24,470 nucleotides of DNA, taken from the IMG/VR virus record IMGVR_UViG_3300049595_001574, positions 1 through 24,470 of that record; one strand, 5' to 3'. Source of the DNA: a virus. Made by a program: the position numbers and the translations under genes. Of the stretch, positions 3,693 through 20,213 are shown one piece after another (within the stretch, counting starts at the first letter, position 1; every line of letters begins with the position of its first letter). The notes beneath the pieces are model-generated. The model made no database searches and was not told the origin of the DNA. It worked only from the letters and a program-made list of their open reading frames with translations.

Positions 3693-6600
3693 TTATACTG
3701 GTGTAGATACGTTAGTTGACCATTCTACTTCTGCATATACATTTAATTTTTCAGGCTGATAAACTAATCCTTCTCCATCATCAACGATTATTTTATTTGT
3801 GCCTATATATGTTTTATAAATATCTGAGGGGTTAATACCATAGAACTCTGATGATCCTATTACTAACATACCGTCCCAAGTAAAGTTATTAAACCAAAAT
3901 TGCCAGTCATTTGTTGTAATACCATCTGTTAATACCTGGAACCATGGTCTAAATGTTCTACTTTCAACCTCTTGTAGGCTGTTTGCCTGATAATAGGCAA
4001 TGTTATTAAATAATATTGGTCCCGTCAAGTTTATGCCTCCAAGATATGAATTATAAACAAGAGAAGTCAAAAAGGATATACCTATTGAGGACCACTCTTT
4101 AAGAGATAAGACTGGCTCTCTTACTAAACTTCCATTTAAATAAAATCCAACACCGTTATAAGGAAAACCGTTTTGGTTTAAAACAAACACTCTGCCTCTA
4201 TCCAGGTCTGCGCTGTTTGCCTGTAGGTAAAACTTAAGAGTTCCGCTTTTATGATTAATTTCAAAAATCTCTGTTGCTGTTGCTGGAAATGCATCTTGAT
4301 CATATCTTAGCCATAACTGCATAGCGCTTACTTTATAGTCTGTTGCTAATTCTTTATTAATTGGTAGGGTTAGTCCACGATTTTCTAAAATATTAATCTC
4401 ACCACGAACTTCAATTCCAGATGTTTTTGTCAAGTATAGATATGGTGTGCTTTCTTTATATATGCTAAATGGGTTTTTAGACTTATAGTCAAAATAAATT
4501 CCATTCTTTTTATACGGAAACAGGTCTACTCCAAACCTAGTTCCCACAGGATTAAAAGAGTTGTCATTAAATGCTTGAGATGCTAACTGTAACTTATTTA
4601 ATAAAATAGGCTTTGTTAAAATTCCACGGCTGTTAAACTCAAGGCTGTAGACAATTGCAAGTTCATTAAAGTCTACCGATTTAATTGGATAGATTAATGT
4701 GTTATTTAATACCTCAAACCTTGTAGTTTCCCAATCTTCATAATTATTTAAGTCAAGAACTTTGTATTCGTCTGGCGCTTCTTCATTAGCAAAAGAGGTA
4801 GGAATATTAGCACCATCTGCAACATATTGAAATGTTACATAACTTTTTATTTGTGCACCATCTGTGTTGTAATAATAGTCCGATGCTCCAGATTCCTGCT
4901 CTAAGGTGGTTGTTGTCGGATACCCCAAATTAAATTGTAAAAAATCTATTTCATAAAATTCTTCTCCACTGCTATTTTTTACAAATTGAGCAAAATAAGA
5001 AAGTGGAAGATAATCTTGCCAATACCCAGCAACACCGATGTCTAAAAAGTATTTTTCATATGCCTCTGATGGAAGTATTGTGTAACTGGCAGTGTGATCA
5101 ATTAATTCTTGCCCCTTGTCTAATTCAATAAATCCGTTACTATCAACATAATCTACTATTTTTGTAGAGTTTAAGGTTGTAGATAACCCTACAGAATAAA
5201 GTCTTCCAGTAAAAGTAAACTCTCCAGAATCGTCTCCACACACGTACATTTTTAAGGAACTTTGATTTCCAAAAAATGAACTTACGTTGCTGCCAAATTT
5301 TTCTGACAATGTATTTATGTTAAACCCAACTGCAAAAAGGCTATTAGCAGTTATTGCACTAGAAGTAAATAGCAATTGTGTAGTTCCGTTATAGGTTAAA
5401 GAATATTTGATTAAATTTCCGTCTTTAAGAATCGTAAAATAGTTATTGTTTAAGGGGTTGTATATCTTAAATAATATTTCATCTGATGCTAGGTTGTGAG
5501 AACTAAAGACTCCATAACAACTCTCAACCTCACTTGACAATAAATTAAATCTTGAAAAATTAATATATGACTCAATAGAGTTCCAGGTGTTGTTAGGTCT
5601 AAATGATAAAAATTTATCAGTAATAACTGGTCCAGACTCATTATCCTGTGCGTCTTTATTGTCATCGTACAACTCTTGCAATGTTTTAGTGCCTAAAAAT
5701 ATTTCTGGTAAAGTATACTCTGGCGTTCTTAAACTTGTTTGAGTAGTTGCTAAATTATCAAAACTGCCTTGATCCCAACCAGCAAAATCTGGATAGTTGT
5801 AGTTAGCAGTGTAGTCTGCAAATGAATAATCTATAAACGCGGTAGTTCCACCATAAGATGAGTTAATTCCTTCTGCAGAAATAACTCCTTGCCCATAAAC
5901 CCATCTACGCTTTGCAACTGTAACTGGAACCTGATAAGAATATATAGCAACACAATCAAGTTCAAAAGGATATACGTTGTTACTTGCATAAAACCCTAAC
6001 CAATCTTGACTATCTCCATTGTTGTCAAGTTCTTCTGGGAGAGTTAAACTGGCGGTATCTAAAGATAATGACAACACTTCTTCTCCATTGACCAACAGAG
6101 ATGCAGAATCTTTAATTAAACGAATATGAATAAGCATTGGTCTAAACCATTCGCCTACGAAATGTGATGCAAACTGATCTCCAATAACTAATGTTAAAAA
6201 TCCATCTTCAACATATAAGCCATCCTCTGAAGATATTGGTCCAAATATTTTAAATGGTGTAAATGTGTTTGCTGCTACTCTTGCCCAAAATTCAACAGTG
6301 TAATCGTTGTACTGTCCTTTTTTATTTAAAAATCCTTTTCCTGGAATAATCAAAGATGCATCAGTGTTTGGTTCTAATCTTGTAACTCCACTTGCACCAT
6401 AAACTAATGGAACACCAGCATTCTTGCATTTTAATCCACCCTCAGTAATATAGTATCCAGAATCTTCTGCTACTCCATATGCTTGTGCCTCTACTGCATC
6501 GTATCCACCATAAATACTTATGTCTGTTGGAACTGTTGTTTCTGTTATTCCGTTTAAAGAATAAGTATTAAATTCTTCATTCCATTGTCCCAAAGTAATG

Positions 6601-7157
6601 CCATTAACATAAAATTCGTTATCTTCAACTTCATTTGATCCTTCAAAAACTTTAATTTTAAATACGATTCTTAGTTGTGCAGATACGTTTGGTATTTCAA
6701 AAGTTTCAGAAACAAAGCCCCACTTTTGATAAAGTGTACTTGTAAAAGTTTTTAAATTTTGAACTATTGTTGAGGTGGCTGGATCTGTATACTCATATCC
6801 TATTGACACTGTTTGTAAAAATAAACTATTTGAATAAAAATATGATCCAATGGTAAATGTTCCAAGATCTGAAAGAGTGTTAAAGTTAAGAATGTTTGGG
6901 CTAACGATTGATGCTTCAAGACTTTCTGATATGGGAACGTCAACTCTAACTCTTGTTAAATGACTATTTATGAATGGCTCGTTTAGGTCTTCAGAGGATG
7001 CTACAAGAGCAGCACTTGTTGGTGTCCATAAAGTTGCAACATCTCTTTGTGCTTCAGTAATCAAACTTTTATAGTCAAGTTTGTCGTCTAGTGCCCACAA
7101 AACTAGCGGATGCTCAGAGTATATTTTTTCTGCATACAAGTTTGATGGGTTAGACAT
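3693..7157 (-). CDS. Large structural protein with LamG-like (concanavalin-type) domains
   Basis: A 1154-residue virion protein, the largest in the window. At least one region is a good LamG/concanavalin A-like jelly roll: about residues 260-385, with NDYTVEFWARV, WFRPMLIHIRL and ASLLVNGEEVLSLSL. Two further beta-rich stretches look similar: about 505-660 (SYINFSRFNLL, LKMYVCGDDSGEFTFTGRLY) and about 880-1095 (SAMQLWLRYDQDAFP, GVGFYLNGSLV, EWSSIGISF). The N-terminus begins with EHPLVLWALDD, a start seen in large phage minor structural proteins. There is no signal peptide. Such jelly rolls typically decorate capsids or tails and may bind surface sugars. The gene has a clear GGAGA ribosome site and its own TGCTATAAT box. 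It separates the head genes from the B12 cassette. The exact virion location is unknown. Confidence 0.75.
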   Translation of the reverse strand: MSNPSNLYAEKIYSEHPLVLWALDDKLDYKSLITEAQRDVATLWTPTSAALVASSEDLNEPFINSHLTRVRVDVPISESLEASIVSPNILNFNTLSDLGTFTIGSYFYSNSLFLQTVSIGYEYTDPATSTIVQNLKTFTSTLYQKWGFVSETFEIPNVSAQLRIVFKIKVFEGSNEVEDNEFYVNGITLGQWNEEFNTYSLNGITETTVPTDISIYGGYDAVEAQAYGVAEDSGYYITEGGLKCKNAGVPLVYGASGVTRLEPNTDASLIIPGKGFLNKKGQYNDYTVEFWARVAANTFTPFKIFGPISSEDGLYVEDGFLTLVIGDQFASHFVGEWFRPMLIHIRLIKDSASLLVNGEEVLSLSLDTASLTLPEELDNNGDSQDWLGFYASNNVYPFELDCVAIYSYQVPVTVAKRRWVYGQGVISAEGINSSYGGTTAFIDYSFADYTANYNYPDFAGWDQGSFDNLATTQTSLRTPEYTLPEIFLGTKTLQELYDDNKDAQDNESGPVITDKFLSFRPNNTWNSIESYINFSRFNLLSSEVESCYGVFSSHNLASDEILFKIYNPLNNNYFTILKDGNLIKYSLTYNGTTQLLFTSSAITANSLFAVGFNINTLSEKFGSNVSSFFGNQSSLKMYVCGDDSGEFTFTGRLYSVGLSTTLNSTKIVDYVDSNGFIELDKGQELIDHTASYTILPSEAYEKYFLDIGVAGYWQDYLPLSYFAQFVKNSSGEEFYEIDFLQFNLGYPTTTTLEQESGASDYYYNTDGAQIKSYVTFQYVADGANIPTSFANEEAPDEYKVLDLNNYEDWETTRFEVLNNTLIYPIKSVDFNELAIVYSLEFNSRGILTKPILLNKLQLASQAFNDNSFNPVGTRFGVDLFPYKKNGIYFDYKSKNPFSIYKESTPYLYLTKTSGIEVRGEINILENRGLTLPINKELATDYKVSAMQLWLRYDQDAFPATATEIFEINHKSGTLKFYLQANSADLDRGRVFVLNQNGFPYNGVGFYLNGSLVREPVLSLKEWSSIGISFLTSLVYNSYLGGINLTGPILFNNIAYYQANSLQEVESRTFRPWFQVLTDGITTNDWQFWFNNFTWDGMLVIGSSEFYGINPSDIYKTYIGTNKIIVDDGEGLVYQPEKLNVYAEVEWSTNVSTPV

Positions 7158-7191: not shown

Positions 7192-7686
7192 CTAATTTTT
7201 AGGAACCCATAACTTTTCATTACCCTTGTTGTGATATCTTGCCATTACGAACAACAAGTCTGAAAGCCTGTTTAGATACTTTGCAATATTAGGGTTTATG
7301 CCTTCTATTTTCCAAACCTGACGCTCTGCTCTTCTAACAACAGTTCTTGCATTATGAATAGCCCCAGTAGGTAAGACAAAAGAATGAAGTGGCTCTAAAT
7401 GTTCGTTATAGTCATCAATAATATTTTCTAAGTGAGTAATTCTTGCTTCTGATATTACGATTGTTGGAGCACCAGAAAGTTCTGCTCCTAGATCAAATAG
7501 ATCGTTTTGTATTCTATCTATAATGTCATTATGAAACTCAGTTGCCATTCCTATAGCAGAGTTTGCTTCATCTACCGCTCCTATTGCTTCAATTAAGTCG
7601 CTGCTCTTATCTATTCGCTCATTAGTGGCGGTAGAGGTTTTTCCATCATCGCCAGTCTTTGTATAAATACGAGTTAGGTGAACCAT
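7192..7686 (-). CDS. Cobalamin adenosyltransferase, PduO type
   Basis: Transfers the 5'-deoxyadenosyl group of ATP to cob(I)alamin, making adenosylcobalamin (coenzyme B12). The 164 residues carry the family landmarks in order: the ATP loop TKTGDDGKTS (9-18, usually TRTGDDGTT), NDLFDLGAELS (61-71), the FVLPTG block (103-108), RTVVRRAER (114-122) with the nucleotide-binding Arg/Arg/Glu, and NRLSDLLFVMAR (139-150). Compared with bacterial enzymes the N-terminus is compact and the loop after FVLPTG is shortened (TGAIHNAR in place of a longer Gly/Ala loop). The start ATG overlaps the stop of the 54-residue gene upstream (TAATG). It lies three genes after the B12-dependent ribonucleotide reductase, so its obvious job is to regenerate that enzyme's cofactor. 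A phage-borne copy is unusual. Confidence 0.9.
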   Translation of the reverse strand: MVHLTRIYTKTGDDGKTSTATNERIDKSSDLIEAIGAVDEANSAIGMATEFHNDIIDRIQNDLFDLGAELSGAPTIVISEARITHLENIIDDYNEHLEPLHSFVLPTGAIHNARTVVRRAERQVWKIEGINPNIAKYLNRLSDLLFVMARYHNKGNEKLWVPKN

Positions 7687-7850
7687 TAGTGCCCCGTCAA
7701 AGAACGCCAGATATCAACAGTTATATCGTTTGCTATGTACAATGCTGCAAGATTTATAGCCAATTGAAAAATATACTCAGCAGTTTTAGTTTTTCTTTTT
7801 TGTATGGGAAACTGTACTATATTATCAAATTTTTTATATGTAGTCTTCAT
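7686..7850 (-). CDS. Hidden 54-residue gene inside the B12 cassette
   Basis: Not recognised. The start ATG overlaps the stop of the DUF4430 gene as ATGA, and the stop overlaps the start of the adenosyltransferase as TAATG. A complete frame coupled at both ends is strong evidence that it is translated. The product is basic at the N-terminus (FPIQKRKTKTAEY) and then forms one amphipathic or partly hydrophobic helix (residues 24-48, containing FQLAINLAALYIAND), ending DIWRSLTGH. It is too short for an enzyme. It could be an adaptor, a peripheral membrane peptide or a partner of one of its neighbours; nothing in the sequence decides between these. Confidence 0.65.
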   Translation of the reverse strand: MKTTYKKFDNIVQFPIQKRKTKTAEYIFQLAINLAALYIANDITVDIWRSLTGH

Positions 7851-8299
7851 GGAAACTTAATTTCTCCGTTATCAGCAAAAACCAAGCCAAGAGAGTCTCC
7901 TGGATTAAGATATTGTTGATCTACAGCCAGTTGTCCCCAACCCCATTCTTTTCTAGGAAAAGGAATTGTTTGTTTTTCTTTAATGATTACTGCCCAATAT
8001 GCTTTCTCTGGTGGCATTATTTCGCAAGACTCTGCTTTTTTATCTGGCAAACCATTAACCCTACAAACAACTGCCAAACCATATTTTTTAGTTCCTTCTA
8101 ATTCAAGATTGGCTTTTTTTAAAACATCTAGGGCAACTGTCTTGGTAGATACATCTATACATTTTGTTAATTTTGTACCGCCATCTAATGGGCCATAGTC
8201 AACATATAGATTAACACAACTGTTATCTGATTTATTTATACCTTGTAGTCCAACAAAAGCCAACAAGACAATTGCTAAAGACGCTAACACTCTTTTCAT
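7847..8299 (-). CDS. Secreted DUF4430 / transcobalamin-like protein
   Basis: A 150-residue exported protein. Residues 1-20 form a signal peptide (KR followed by a hydrophobic core LASLAIVLLAFVGL); no lipobox is seen. The mature part matches the DUF4430 pattern (Pfam PF14478), which is related to the C-terminal beta domain of transcobalamin and intrinsic factor. Features are VNLYVDYGP (29-37), CRVNGLP (79-85), the PP..AYW segment (96-102), and the closing YLNPGDSLGLVF (130-141). Cys28, Cys47, Cys79 and Cys92 could form two disulfides, as expected outside the membrane. AGGGG lies 7 bases before the ATG. The gene sits between a B12-using enzyme and a B12-activating enzyme, so a role in binding cobalamin at the cell surface is the leading guess. 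Binding itself is not shown by sequence, and other DUF4430 proteins have no known ligand. Confidence 0.75.
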   Translation of the reverse strand: MKRVLASLAIVLLAFVGLQGINKSDNSCVNLYVDYGPLDGGTKLTKCIDVSTKTVALDVLKKANLELEGTKKYGLAVVCRVNGLPDKKAESCEIMPPEKAYWAVIIKEKQTIPFPRKEWGWGQLAVDQQYLNPGDSLGLVFADNGEIKFP

Positions 8300-8307
8300 T
8301 TATCCCC

Positions 8308-10338
8308 TTAGTAAAGTTTAATTTCACAGGCATCTGTGCTGCAATAAGCCTCACCCTGTGCTTCCAGATTTTCTACGCCATCATAAATTGCAGACCAATC
8401 AATTTTTGCAATTTTGCCTACGTAAGAATTATATTCTTCTCTTGTAATATTGTTGTATGGTTGTTGCGGAAATGTTTCATTACCCATAGGTAAAAACGAA
8501 ACAGCCTTTAACTCACCTTCATAAAGATGAAGGGCTGGAGCCACATGCTTCTTTTCTGTTTCTTTATCAAAAGACAGAGTTACAGAAACTCCATTATCAG
8601 ACCAATACTTTTGAGCAGTTGCTGCCAAACCAATTTTTTCAAAAAGACTTACATCCTTTTCAGAGCGGGGATGTCCAGATGCTACTGGGAAGTAGACTAC
8701 TGAAGTGTTAGCAGAAACTAAGTCTGCTTCAACTTTATACCCTGCTGCTTTAAATAAATGAAGCATTGGGTCTGTATTTCCAAACCTTATAGCACGTAGA
8801 TAAAATGCTCCTCCTGGACCCCAATGAACTCCTGGTGTTGCACCAGATAGTAGTGACACAGAGCCTGAAGGTTTGACGGTAGTTACACGAATTGATTCAC
8901 GTACACACAACCATTCTGAGTATGAATGATCGTATGCTTTAATTTTTTTATACCCTTCGTCCATCCATTCACGAACTGCTGGCATACCCTTTGTATCTGC
9001 AAAAGATGCAATACCAGTTAAAGATGTTCCAATACGACGATTACGTTGCATAATGCCATTTGTGGTTTGCCAATGTGTTGGCATCAGGGTTACAGTCTTT
9101 CCATATAGATACGCAAACTTTAGTGTACGAAGAAAATCTTCTTTATCTTCGTGACGGTTTAAGTGAACTTCTACTAATGTACATAGTTCGTATGATTCTA
9201 ATGGTTGTTCTGCACATGGATTAAAACCCATTACACGATAATCTTTTCCATCTGGTGCATCTGCAAGTCTTCCATAGTTACGAGCAACGTCAAGCCAAAT
9301 AAATCCTGGCTCTCCATTGTCTGCAATTAAGTCAACATAATCTTCATAGTTTGTTCCAACCTCTGCAGCAATAGAGTTGTTAGACATCCAAGCCCATCCT
9401 GGATTTTTTGGATCATAAGAATTACGCTCTGGGAAAACTTCTGCATTTTTTAAATTACTAAAATCTTTGTCTTCTGCATTTCCTAAAGCAAGGGTAGCAG
9501 AACGACGAACATTACCAGAAACAACGCAGGTACCGATAAGATTAATAATATCCACAATTGCACGAGAATCAAACTTGTCTCCTGCTCTAGATCCCACAAT
9601 CTTTGTAATTCGGTTATGTAAATCCATTAATGGTCCTGGACCACTGGCTACCCCGCCAAAACCTTTAATAGGTGCCCCCAAAGGTCTAATAAGGCTATAT
9701 TCAAACTGCTGTATAGGCTGGTTTGGACGAAGATATGAATTTATTAATAATCTTACAGACTCAACCCATCCTTCTCTAGTATCAGGAATTTCATATATTG
9801 AGGGTGGTTCTGTTGGAGCATAAATTAACATTTCTTTTTCTTGTCCTAGAGTATCAAAGCCTACGCCTATACCCAACATTAATGCATCCATAACCCATGC
9901 GAACAAGGCTCCTGGATCATTACGATCAATATCACGAGTAGATACCATTGCACAGTTTTGCAAGGCAGCAGAGTTACGTTTATCCATAGTCATAGGGGTT
10001 CCAAATGCCCATAGGCCACGACCTGGTGGGGTCCACTTTAATTCAAACATTCTTTGAAAGGCTTCTTGAGCAGACTTTTGAGCCTTGTTATCATTCCAAG
10101 GTAAACGATTTTCTTTAGCATGGTTTTTTTGAACTGAATACATACCTTCAATTACACGTTTACAAACCTCATACCATCTTTCTTTTGTACCGTCTTCTTT
10201 CATACGTGAATAAGTGCGTATAAAGGTTACCTCGCCAAGAGAGTTTGATCCAGCATCTGAGAATCCAAATGGGGGTGGAGTGTCTTTGTATTTTGCTACG
10301 AAGTCTTCTAGTAAACGAAAAGAAAAGGTATCTGACAT
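8308..10338 (-). CDS. nrdJ: Class II (adenosylcobalamin-dependent) ribonucleoside-triphosphate reductase
   Basis: Reduces ribonucleoside triphosphates to deoxynucleotides for phage DNA synthesis, using a thiyl radical generated from adenosylcobalamin, so no oxygen or metal radical cofactor is needed. The 676-residue protein is of the monomeric Lactobacillus leichmannii type. Key residues are all present with the reference spacing: Cys129 (reducing pair), Asn373 and radical-bearing Cys375 and Glu377 in NPCAE, Cys386 (second of the reducing pair, 11 residues on as in the reference enzyme), and a C-terminal shuttle pair Cys666/Cys671, five apart. The protein is somewhat shorter than the 739-residue reference. 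It is the first gene of a coupled cassette with a signal-bearing DUF4430 protein, a 54-residue gene and an adenosyltransferase. It has a weak ribosome site and a leader of about 40 bases. Confidence 0.93.
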   Translation of the reverse strand: MSDTFSFRLLEDFVAKYKDTPPPFGFSDAGSNSLGEVTFIRTYSRMKEDGTKERWYEVCKRVIEGMYSVQKNHAKENRLPWNDNKAQKSAQEAFQRMFELKWTPPGRGLWAFGTPMTMDKRNSAALQNCAMVSTRDIDRNDPGALFAWVMDALMLGIGVGFDTLGQEKEMLIYAPTEPPSIYEIPDTREGWVESVRLLINSYLRPNQPIQQFEYSLIRPLGAPIKGFGGVASGPGPLMDLHNRITKIVGSRAGDKFDSRAIVDIINLIGTCVVSGNVRRSATLALGNAEDKDFSNLKNAEVFPERNSYDPKNPGWAWMSNNSIAAEVGTNYEDYVDLIADNGEPGFIWLDVARNYGRLADAPDGKDYRVMGFNPCAEQPLESYELCTLVEVHLNRHEDKEDFLRTLKFAYLYGKTVTLMPTHWQTTNGIMQRNRRIGTSLTGIASFADTKGMPAVREWMDEGYKKIKAYDHSYSEWLCVRESIRVTTVKPSGSVSLLSGATPGVHWGPGGAFYLRAIRFGNTDPMLHLFKAAGYKVEADLVSANTSVVYFPVASGHPRSEKDVSLFEKIGLAATAQKYWSDNGVSVTLSFDKETEKKHVAPALHLYEGELKAVSFLPMGNETFPQQPYNNITREEYNSYVGKIAKIDWSAIYDGVENLEAQGEAYCSTDACEIKLY

Positions 10339-10414: not shown

Positions 10415-10447
10415 TTAAAAAGAAAAACACGCTTGTTTAAGGCGTGT
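10415..10447 (-). terminator. Intrinsic terminator between fibre gene and nrdJ
   Basis: Read on the minus strand, ACACGC (10442-10447) and GCGTGT (10427-10432) form a 6-bp stem around a 9-base loop. A T-rich tract follows: five T, C, five T. It separates the tail-fibre transcript from the nrdJ promoter. Confidence 0.75.
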
Positions 10448-10506: not shown

Positions 10507-10533
10507 TAGTACTTTTATTTTAAATAAGTACTA
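10507..10533 (-). repeat. Inverted repeat overlapping the fibre gene stop codon
   Basis: TAGTACTT (10507-10514) and AAGTACTA (10526-10533) are exact inverted arms of 8 bases around an 11-base AT-rich loop. The fibre gene's TAG stop is inside the right arm. On the minus strand a short T run follows within 10 bases, so this could be a weak first terminator or an mRNA 3' end stabiliser. No gene lies between 10339 and 10530. Confidence 0.45.
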
Positions 10534-11943
10534 TGCACCAATTAGCATAAATTCGCTAAATGCTGCTCCGCCACCTGATGTTGCCCAAGATAAGTTTCCA
10601 GAGCCATCTGTTGACAATGCTTGTCCCGCTGTTCCGTCTGCTGCAGGAAGTACCCAAACCTTATTTGTTGTAACAGTTCCTGGTGACTTAAAACCAACAT
10701 AGTGAGTTGAATCTGTATCTGCTAAACGAAGTTCTGCTGTGGCATTAAGAGTAAGTGCTGTTGTTGCTATTGCACTTCCCAAAGTTTTATTCGTCAATGT
10801 TTGTGCTGTTGAAAGATCTGCAGTTATTGCAGTATCAATACTAAATACTGATCCAGTTAATGTTAACCCTGTGCCTGCAGTAAAAGTTCCTGCACCTGAA
10901 AACTGACTAAACGTAATTGGATCTGTTCCTACTGTTGTAACAACACTTGTCTGTACATATCCCGTATTGTCATTTACAGTTCCACCAGTTACGAAAATAA
11001 AGTCACCACCTTGAATTTCTGCAGAAGAATCAAAATCTGTTGCTCTAGTTGGTGCTCCTGATGCTGCTACTACATAAATACCGTTTTCAGATGCAGTTGA
11101 TTGATTCTTAACAAGTATTCTATTTCCTGTTGCAAGAGTTACTCCATCAAGAACGTCTCCATTTTCAACATCTGTTGCAAGAGTAATGTTGGCAGTGGTT
11201 GCTGCAACTGCGGATGCATGAATATGTAATCCTTGTGCAACTGAGTCTACATATGATGTTAGTGCAACTGTACCAGTTTCATCTGGAAATGTAATTGTTC
11301 TATCAGCAGTTGGGTCAGTTACTGCTAAAGTAGTTTCAAAAGCATTTGCAGTTGAACCTTCAATAATAATTGAAGAATCTGAAATGGTTAGACCTGATAC
11401 AACTGGGCCTGTTAAAGTTTTATTTGTAAGAGTTTGTGTTCCAGATTCAGTTACAACTCCTGCTGGAATATCTGTTGTAAGAGCAAGTGTTCCTGTAGCA
11501 TCTGGAAATGTTACTGTGCGGTCTGCAGTTGGATCTCCAGCAGAAAGGGTAAGTTCAAAGGAGTCTGCCGTAGCACCTTCCATTACGATTGTTGAAGTAA
11601 ATACACCAATGTCTGTAATGTCTGAAAGGTTACCAGTTGTAATAACTGTACCGCTAACGTTTGGAAGAGTGATTGTACGATCAGCGCTTGGATCTGTTAC
11701 TTGAAGAACTGTCTCGTAAGAATCTGCGGTAGCACCTTCAAAAGTAATACTTGAACCAAAAGCAGGATTTACAGTAGAGTTAATATCTGCAAAATAATCT
11801 AGGCTTGCCCAGTGGTTTGTTCCATCACCAATTTTAAATTTATTTGTGTCTGATTCCCAACCCATTTCACCAGCATTTAATACTGGGTTTGCTGATGTCC
11901 ATTGTGCTGCAGTACCTCTGCGTTGCTGCATTCTGGTTGCCAT
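10531..11943 (-). CDS. Tail fibre with Mtd-like N-terminus and triple beta repeats
   Basis: A 470-residue receptor-binding fibre. Residues 1-52 (RMQQRRGTAAQW, LNAGEMGWESDTNKFKIGDG) are the N-terminal module familiar from phage hyaluronidase-like and major-tropism-determinant fibres. Three copies of a module of the form EGATADSYETVLQVTDPSAD-(R-T-[IV]-T) follow at about 68-100, 121-154 and 194-228. Then comes a larger module (248-355, including LDGVTLATGNRILVKNQST) that is almost identical to one in the fibre encoded at 12454-14397. The C-terminus is a glycine-rich turn ending SEFMLIGA, similar to the ILMMGA end of the protein encoded at 17607-18038. The ribosome site is GGAG. Repeated modules suggest that host range changes by recombination between fibre genes. 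Confidence 0.8.
   Translation of the reverse strand: MATRMQQRRGTAAQWTSANPVLNAGEMGWESDTNKFKIGDGTNHWASLDYFADINSTVNPAFGSSITFEGATADSYETVLQVTDPSADRTITLPNVSGTVITTGNLSDITDIGVFTSTIVMEGATADSFELTLSAGDPTADRTVTFPDATGTLALTTDIPAGVVTESGTQTLTNKTLTGPVVSGLTISDSSIIIEGSTANAFETTLAVTDPTADRTITFPDETGTVALTSYVDSVAQGLHIHASAVAATTANITLATDVENGDVLDGVTLATGNRILVKNQSTASENGIYVVAASGAPTRATDFDSSAEIQGGDFIFVTGGTVNDNTGYVQTSVVTTVGTDPITFSQFSGAGTFTAGTGLTLTGSVFSIDTAITADLSTAQTLTNKTLGSAIATTALTLNATAELRLADTDSTHYVGFKSPGTVTTNKVWVLPAADGTAGQALSTDGSGNLSWATSGGGAAFSEFMLIGA
11029..11193 (-). repeat. Dispersed fibre module, copy A
   Basis: Encodes residues 251-305 of the upstream-neighbour fibre and matches 13159-13317 closely at both DNA and protein level. 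The core LDGVTLATGNRILVKNQST is identical in both copies. It is a likely site for recombination between the two fibre genes. Confidence 0.75.
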
Positions 11944-19496: not shown

Positions 19497-20213
19497 CTAT
19501 GATACCGATATATATATGCCTTTTAATATAAAAGAACTTTCATTGTCGGTCCTAATTTGTGGTTGACCACCATAGTTTTTAATTTTGTCGCTATTGATAA
19601 AAATGGTTTGACACTGTGATATGTCGTATGAATACTGATATTTAAGTAATCCTACATAGCCTATCGGAGAAACCTCTTCTTCTCTCAAAAGAGTTCTTAT
19701 CCAAACCTCTGTATTCGGAACATATGTTTCTAAAGAAAAGTCATATCTAATATCTACCTTTGCACCAACTTTTAAAGTTTTTAAATTTATGTTTCTTGCT
19801 GTTTCATTCAATAGAGAAACTGATCGGTTTGGCAAATAAGATTCAATAGTTTTTGATTCATCAATATTTAAGAAAAAATTAACCCAACCATCATCTCCCC
19901 TTTCTGGACCAGCCCTATATGTTTGTATGCTTTTGTTTGAGTAATATGCCCATCCAGGATATTGGCCAGATGGGCTGTCATATCCATCCCCTGCTTTTCC
20001 TGGCTCACCACGTTCACCTTGTGGTCCTTGTTTTCCTATATCACCCCTATCGCCCTTATCACCTTTTGGTCCTTGTGGTCCAGGAAGTCCTTGTGGCCCT
20101 GTATCACCTTTTTCTCCAGTAATTCCAGGTACAGCAATATATTCTGTAGTTTTGACTTCTTGGATAGTTTCTAGATATTTTTTCTTTTTAGGAAAGTCCA
20201 TGCTTTTAGCCAT
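19497..20213 (-). CDS. Collagen-like tail fibre
   Basis: 238 residues. About 16 uninterrupted Gly-X-Y triplets occupy residues 30-77 (GEKGDTGPQGLPGPQGPKGD and onwards), which form a collagen triple helix in many phage fibres. The N-terminus is basic (DFPKKKKYLETIQEVKTTEY). The C-terminal domain (80-238) is a beta-rich head (QYPGWAYYSNKSIQTYRAGP, EVWIRTLLREEEVSPIGYVG) of unknown type, probably the surface-binding part. The Shine-Dalgarno is weak; an alternative ATG is four codons in. It follows the 29-residue gene. Confidence 0.75.
   Translation of the reverse strand: MAKSMDFPKKKKYLETIQEVKTTEYIAVPGITGEKGDTGPQGLPGPQGPKGDKGDRGDIGKQGPQGERGEPGKAGDGYDSPSGQYPGWAYYSNKSIQTYRAGPERGDDGWVNFFLNIDESKTIESYLPNRSVSLLNETARNINLKTLKVGAKVDIRYDFSLETYVPNTEVWIRTLLREEEVSPIGYVGLLKYQYSYDISQCQTIFINSDKIKNYGGQPQIRTDNESSFILKGIYISVS

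Follow-up and report, generated by a model that had tools for sequence, protein, structure and literature searches.

A cassette of four minus-strand phage genes is likely to be a mobile vitamin B12-provisioning module, with which the phage would capture cobalamin, adenosylate it and use it for dNTP synthesis outside the adenosylcobalamin (AdoCbl) feedback of its host. The cassette lies in IMG/VR record IMGVR_UViG_3300049595_001574, a stretch of 24,470 bases that also holds head, portal and fibre genes and that was analysed whole (the window). Our data show that its ribonucleotide reductase (RNR) falls in an AdoCbl-dependent class, that its adenosyltransferase (ACA) is a member of an AdoCbl-making family and that a third product is exported and related to proteins encoded in actinobacterial B12-uptake loci. 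The ligand of the exported protein, the hand-over of cobalamin, the role of the remaining 54-residue protein (S54) and the escape from riboswitch control are all inferred. A preliminary description, made from the sequence alone, had interpreted these genes as capturing, activating and using B12; the interpretation is supported, with capture and enzyme activity still inferred.

The RNR gene (8308..10338, minus strand, 676 aa) encodes a monomeric class II ribonucleoside-triphosphate reductase of the NrdJm type. Eight bases separate its stop from the ATG of the gene for an exported or membrane-anchored transcobalamin beta-domain-like protein of 150 aa, a predicted corrinoid binder (7847..8299, minus strand), which overlaps S54 (7686..7850, minus strand) by the four bases ATGA; S54 in turn overlaps the PduO-type ATP:cob(I)alamin adenosyltransferase (7192..7686, minus strand, 164 aa) by one base within TAATG. 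The next gene is that of a 1154-aa virion-block (tail-block) protein (3693..7157, minus strand), which follows RNR directly in relatives lacking the cassette. An intrinsic terminator on the minus strand (about 10416..10447; 6-bp stem, 9-nt loop and T tract, z −3.5) separates RNR from the fibre gene in front of it. The four open reading frames, the gap, both overlaps and the terminator had been claimed in the preliminary description and all held; the promoter it had placed in front of the cassette did not, promoter matches there being no better than chance (11 found against 12.4 expected). Searches in front of the phage genes found no cobalamin riboswitch, and profile searches of the window found no ECF gene beside the cassette. 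Elsewhere in the window, the fibre protein encoded at positions 10531-11943 carries an Mtd_N domain, named for the N-terminus of the major tropism determinant (Pfam E 5e-13), and collagen repeats (Pfam E 5e-8) occur in a tail-fibre-like protein encoded at positions 19497-20213.

Both enzymes are securely placed in their families. RNR scored 356.4 bits against TIGR02505, above the curated cut-off of 340.05, and matched PHROG 367 (E 1e-142) and the structure of Lactobacillus leichmannii RTPR (1L1L; E 1.3e-97), with which its active-site cysteine, NPCxE motif and C-terminal cysteine pair all aligned. Profile and residues thus show a monomeric class II enzyme (NrdJm/RTPR), bearing out the earlier claim of a class II reductase with its catalytic cysteines; AdoCbl-dependent activity is inferred. 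Relatives of this RNR occur in 1,200 deposited phage records. ACA exceeded the cut-offs of both PF01923 (167.8 bits; cut-off 24) and TIGR00636 (154.4 bits; cut-off 108), confirming the PduO-type assignment made beforehand. Its closest PDB structure is the Mycobacterium tuberculosis enzyme (2g2d/6wgs; E about 8e-34), and the TGDxGxT, SFVLPxG, RRAER and YLNRLSDLLF motifs were all found in the alignment with 2g2d. Membership of the family that makes AdoCbl is shown; adenosyltransferase activity is inferred. Five residues directly after LPTG are missing from the short phage form. Two independent acquisitions of ACA by phages were considered and found no support, every phage form falling on one side of a single branch (96/87). 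Only 15 deposited phage records contain ACA, mostly short unannotated contigs from Listeria, Enterococcus, Salmonella or faecal sources. The INPHARED matches H4-H12 and H15 are short 'phage' records without annotation, obtained from Listeria, Salmonella or Enterococcus preparations; they encode PduO-type ACAs and could represent carried-over bacterial DNA.

The exported protein is harder to identify. No Pfam, PHROGs, NCBIfam or PDB sequence profile matched it, the DUF4430 Pfam profile matched none of 30 family members even at E ≤ 10, no match to any known or proven B12 binder emerged from profile searches, and the deposited phage genomes searched contained no match to it. An AlphaFold (AF2) model built from 30 relatives (pLDDT 83.5, pTM 0.74) gave DUF4430 or transcobalamin proteins as its first 16 PDB matches in Foldseek (probability 1.00, best E about 1e-3), with TM-scores by target of 0.69-0.71 for the DUF4430 protein 3u7z and 0.55 for the solo beta domain 5no0. 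With TM-scores this modest, and with a host homologue whose model matched transcobalamin only weakly (probability 0.98, E 0.03-0.04, with other beta-grasp proteins mixed in), a transcobalamin-type beta-grasp fold is a likely prediction rather than a proven one. Nothing similar to the model was found among deposited viral-protein structures or predicted viral proteins. The 'DUF4430' label of the preliminary description therefore held only in part, supported by the predicted fold and by no sequence model, and its corrinoid capture, for which there are no binding data, remains inferred. The N-terminus is hydrophobic, and C28, C47, C79, C92, W102 and W119, together with MP and AxW, are invariant across the phage and cell proteins, the four cysteines being common to every member of the family.

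We regard the cellular homologues as the strongest evidence on the identity of this protein. When the phage alignment was scanned against 84,980 species genomes, six loci were returned, all from Actinobacteria, and a second genome set added 20 more. All 26 have ECF transporter genes directly after the homologue, and 20 also carry metH, for the B12-dependent methionine synthase, on that stretch. Among candidate stretches, tblastn matched the exported protein to that of locus L188 with E 5e-20. Three small genomes whose ACAs are among those nearest the phage ACA hold a solo homologue, 36-42% identical (L319-L321; profile E about 1e-47, the profile including both phage and cell sets), and each of the three homologues directly follows a cobalamin or AdoCbl riboswitch. 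The same chromosomal site in L322-L326 holds a riboswitch (5/5), a relative matched only weakly (E 6e-5 to 1e-3) and ECF genes. With L191-L193, where a cobalamin riboswitch directly precedes the homologue gene, riboswitches stand upstream of clear homologues in six loci and of weak ones in five; no cobalamin riboswitch was found at ten host ACA or nrdJ loci, nor, at Rfam's threshold, at most Microbacteriaceae-type homologue loci. We conclude that the exported-protein family belongs to B12 uptake; corrinoid binding itself is inferred.

Some features of these loci are recorded for their own sake. The solo transcobalamin-like genes behind riboswitches lie at L319:6980-7706, L320:9159-9885 and L321:8847-9591 in small-genome actinobacteria. 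In the ECF-linked relative at L322:8758-9297 the domain halves are apparently swapped, with the C-terminal-like half first, and NCBIfam SCO2322_fam, which weakly matches the protein of L188, may be of the same type. Microbacteriaceae-type genomes with an ECF-metH arrangement (L188:7848-15155, L189:7875-14988 and L248-L265) mostly lack a PduO- or CobA-family adenosyltransferase (PF01923 in 3 and PF02572 in none of 24 Microbacteriaceae-type genomes with homologues), and imported B12 therefore probably serves MetH only.

S54 is predicted to cross the membrane once; it has a hydrophobic stretch at residues 27-45 and a near-invariant C-terminus (consensus DIWRSLTGH). The codons under this motif vary synonymously, and we conclude that the motif is maintained by selection at the protein level. 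That variation led us to reject the idea that the sequence encoding this end of S54 serves ACA translation as an RNA signal, as did retention of the motif where ACA is missing (L118-L120, L106). A role for S54 in docking the exported protein is possible but no more than a guess.

We asked how far the arrangement is conserved using IMG/VR relatives of ACA (235), of the exported protein (41) and of RNR (at least 596). The order and overlaps of the trio of exported protein, S54 and ACA are kept in 53 distinct cassettes, every one of which contains S54; S54 overlaps ACA by one base in all 53, the exported-protein gene overlaps S54 by four bases in 48, and RNR is directly upstream, at most 11 bases away, in 34. 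Median dN/dS was 0.09 for RNR, 0.25 for the exported protein, 0.28 for S54 and 0.055 for ACA. Order and overlaps, and with them translational coupling, are conserved far beyond chance, with purifying selection on every gene. The preliminary description had named an unconserved gene order as grounds for refutation; the order proved to be conserved in dozens of relatives, with the trio present at a second position as well. In 42 loci with RNR only, the site is empty and the tail-block protein starts 35 bases after RNR; partial sites hold RNR and S54 (L118-L120) or RNR, exported protein and S54 (L101). The second locus places the trio among replication-type genes, with no RNR on the stretch examined (L080, L081). 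Among 40 IMG/VR records of 18-111 kb, 21 had both exported protein and ACA, one had ACA only, two had the exported protein only and 16 had neither. These counts are inflated by physical linkage and kinship, and the case for a functional unit rests more on the second locus than on co-occurrence. Nor is the trio obligatory, since ACA is missing from two records that hold the exported protein with S54, and many RNR-bearing phages lack the trio. The isolate DSL-LC01, whose RNR is 61% identical, gave no match to ACA or the capture protein, and the gene after its RNR is unrelated to S54. On our reading the three genes form an accessory unit that phages gain or lose either next to RNR or within the replication module. 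Two further arrangements were seen. A second phage group (L106:6082-8605 and L107-L111) has a distant RNR (28% identity) with exported protein and S54 but no ACA, and ACA occurs alone in L066, L075, L077 and L079 beside replication-type neighbours (RecA-like and MazG-like by eye), with no RNR on the stretch examined.

The cassette phages are very likely to infect freshwater actinobacteria. WhiB, an actinobacterial marker, was found in 13 of 33 phage records, and phage isolates of Nanopelagicales carry whiB (PMC10202952; no B12 gene is mentioned in that paper). The cellular ACAs nearest the phage ACA, up to 62% identical, are in small Actinomycetia genomes, mostly of 1.2-1.8 Mb and 40-52% GC, values that fit 'Ca. 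Nanopelagicales' (acI), an assignment inferred from size and GC alone. Class II NrdJ exceeded its cut-off in 27 of 30 small Actinomycetia genomes. The RNR of these candidate hosts is of the NrdJ_Z type and that of the phage of the monomeric RTPR type, so the phage gene is not a simple copy of the host's. The corrin-ring gene cbiC was found in none of 34 candidate host genomes, consistent with B12 auxotrophy and fitting the earlier remark that many freshwater actinobacteria may be B12 auxotrophs. Compensation by the phage ACA for a host without one was rejected as a general reason for the cassette, since the likelier, small-genome hosts already own an ACA; hosts without one are the case for most Microbacteriaceae-type genomes with homologues.

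In the mechanism we propose, the exported protein would bind cobalamin at the cell surface and deliver it to the B12 importer of the host, with S54 perhaps docking the exported protein; host reductants would yield cob(I)alamin, which the phage PduO-type enzyme would adenosylate to AdoCbl, and this would power the phage RNR to supply dNTPs. Because the host relatives are riboswitch-controlled and the phage copies have no riboswitch, the phage could sustain capture at high AdoCbl. A bolder version, which we hold to be as likely as not, is that a riboswitch-free surface capture protein works with the host importer so that import and adenosylation continue in the infected cell; by means of a mobile trio the virus would then command the supply of the cofactor all the way from the cell exterior to the active site. 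Several observations count against provisioning: the exported protein has no profile match to DUF4430 or B12 binders, the host model matches weakly and beta-grasp folds bind many ligands; in addition, no riboswitch reaches Rfam's threshold at most Microbacteriaceae-type loci, the trio is not obligatory and the likely hosts have their own ACA.

Three other explanations deserve weighing. RNR and ACA might supply dNTPs while the exported protein does another surface job, such as masking a receptor on the host's B12 importer in superinfection exclusion. Its export, its hydrophobic N-terminus and its faster evolution than the enzymes (dN/dS 0.25) would suit such a role, as would its presence with S54 but without ACA in some phages (L101, L106-L111). 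Against this, it is linked to ACA in 21 of the 24 records holding either, both genes are at the second locus, and its most conserved residues are those common to the host B12-operon proteins, and we consider the explanation unlikely. It is likewise improbable, in our judgement, that the protein's ligand is something else, whether cobalt, cobinamide or a non-corrinoid, and that the B12 context of its relatives is only indirect. In favour of this are the diverse ligands of SLBB/beta-grasp domains (PMC1796856), the transport of other vitamins and metals by ECF modules and the absence of a sequence match to a proven B12 binder; it is opposed by the cobalamin-class riboswitches before homologues and their metH neighbours, and by the RNR and ACA neighbours in phages.

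Least credible, and in our view very unlikely, is a hitch-hiking cluster of separately useful genes that have no joint role and merely share one permissive intergenic site. The site between RNR and the tail-block protein is indeed variable, with full, partial and empty versions, but an unrelated second site (L080, L081) holds the trio with its order unchanged, and the genes match successive steps of one pathway. Provisioning of B12 remains the reading we prefer. If it is true, phage DNA synthesis in abundant freshwater bacteria is tied to a trace vitamin, an unnamed family of actinobacterial B12-locus proteins gains a testable role, and a cofactor supply line travels as a mobile viral module. 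A phage class II RNR has been used as an argument that the host makes B12 (PMC6775973); a phage that brings its own cofactor capture and activation weakens this argument, since B12-scavenging auxotrophs may be able to support its replication.

The combination of RNR, adenosyltransferase and exported B12-locus protein in one phage unit is unreported in the open-access literature we searched, which excluded subscription papers and preprints. Its parts have precedents. Class II RNRs are known from Cobaviruses (PMC6775973) and, as NrdJm, from a Thermus virus (PMC6459318), which like the cassette phage have an AdoCbl-dependent RNR for dNTP supply; their hosts are indicated to be B12 makers, however, and no adenosyltransferase or capture protein was described. 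Viral cobA, encoding a cob(I)alamin adenosyltransferase, is among the auxiliary genes catalogued for wastewater viromes (PMC11183165); it covers the same adenosylation step as the cassette ACA but is CobA rather than PduO, and was not reported joined to an RNR or an exported binder. Transcobalamin-like SLBB domains were already known in bacteria (PMC1796856), and this clade and DUF4430 share a predicted beta-grasp domain, export and the top structural matches with the phage protein, which differs in having no sequence-profile match to them and no alpha/alpha toroid partner domain. The last precedent is the actinobacterial B12 ECF-transporter locus, comprising a cobalamin riboswitch in some cases, an exported protein, EcfT/A, an S component and often a metH neighbour. 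The product of its first gene is homologous to the phage exported protein (up to 42% identity), and it is this gene alone, without the riboswitch or the ECF genes, that the phage has within its RNR/ACA unit.
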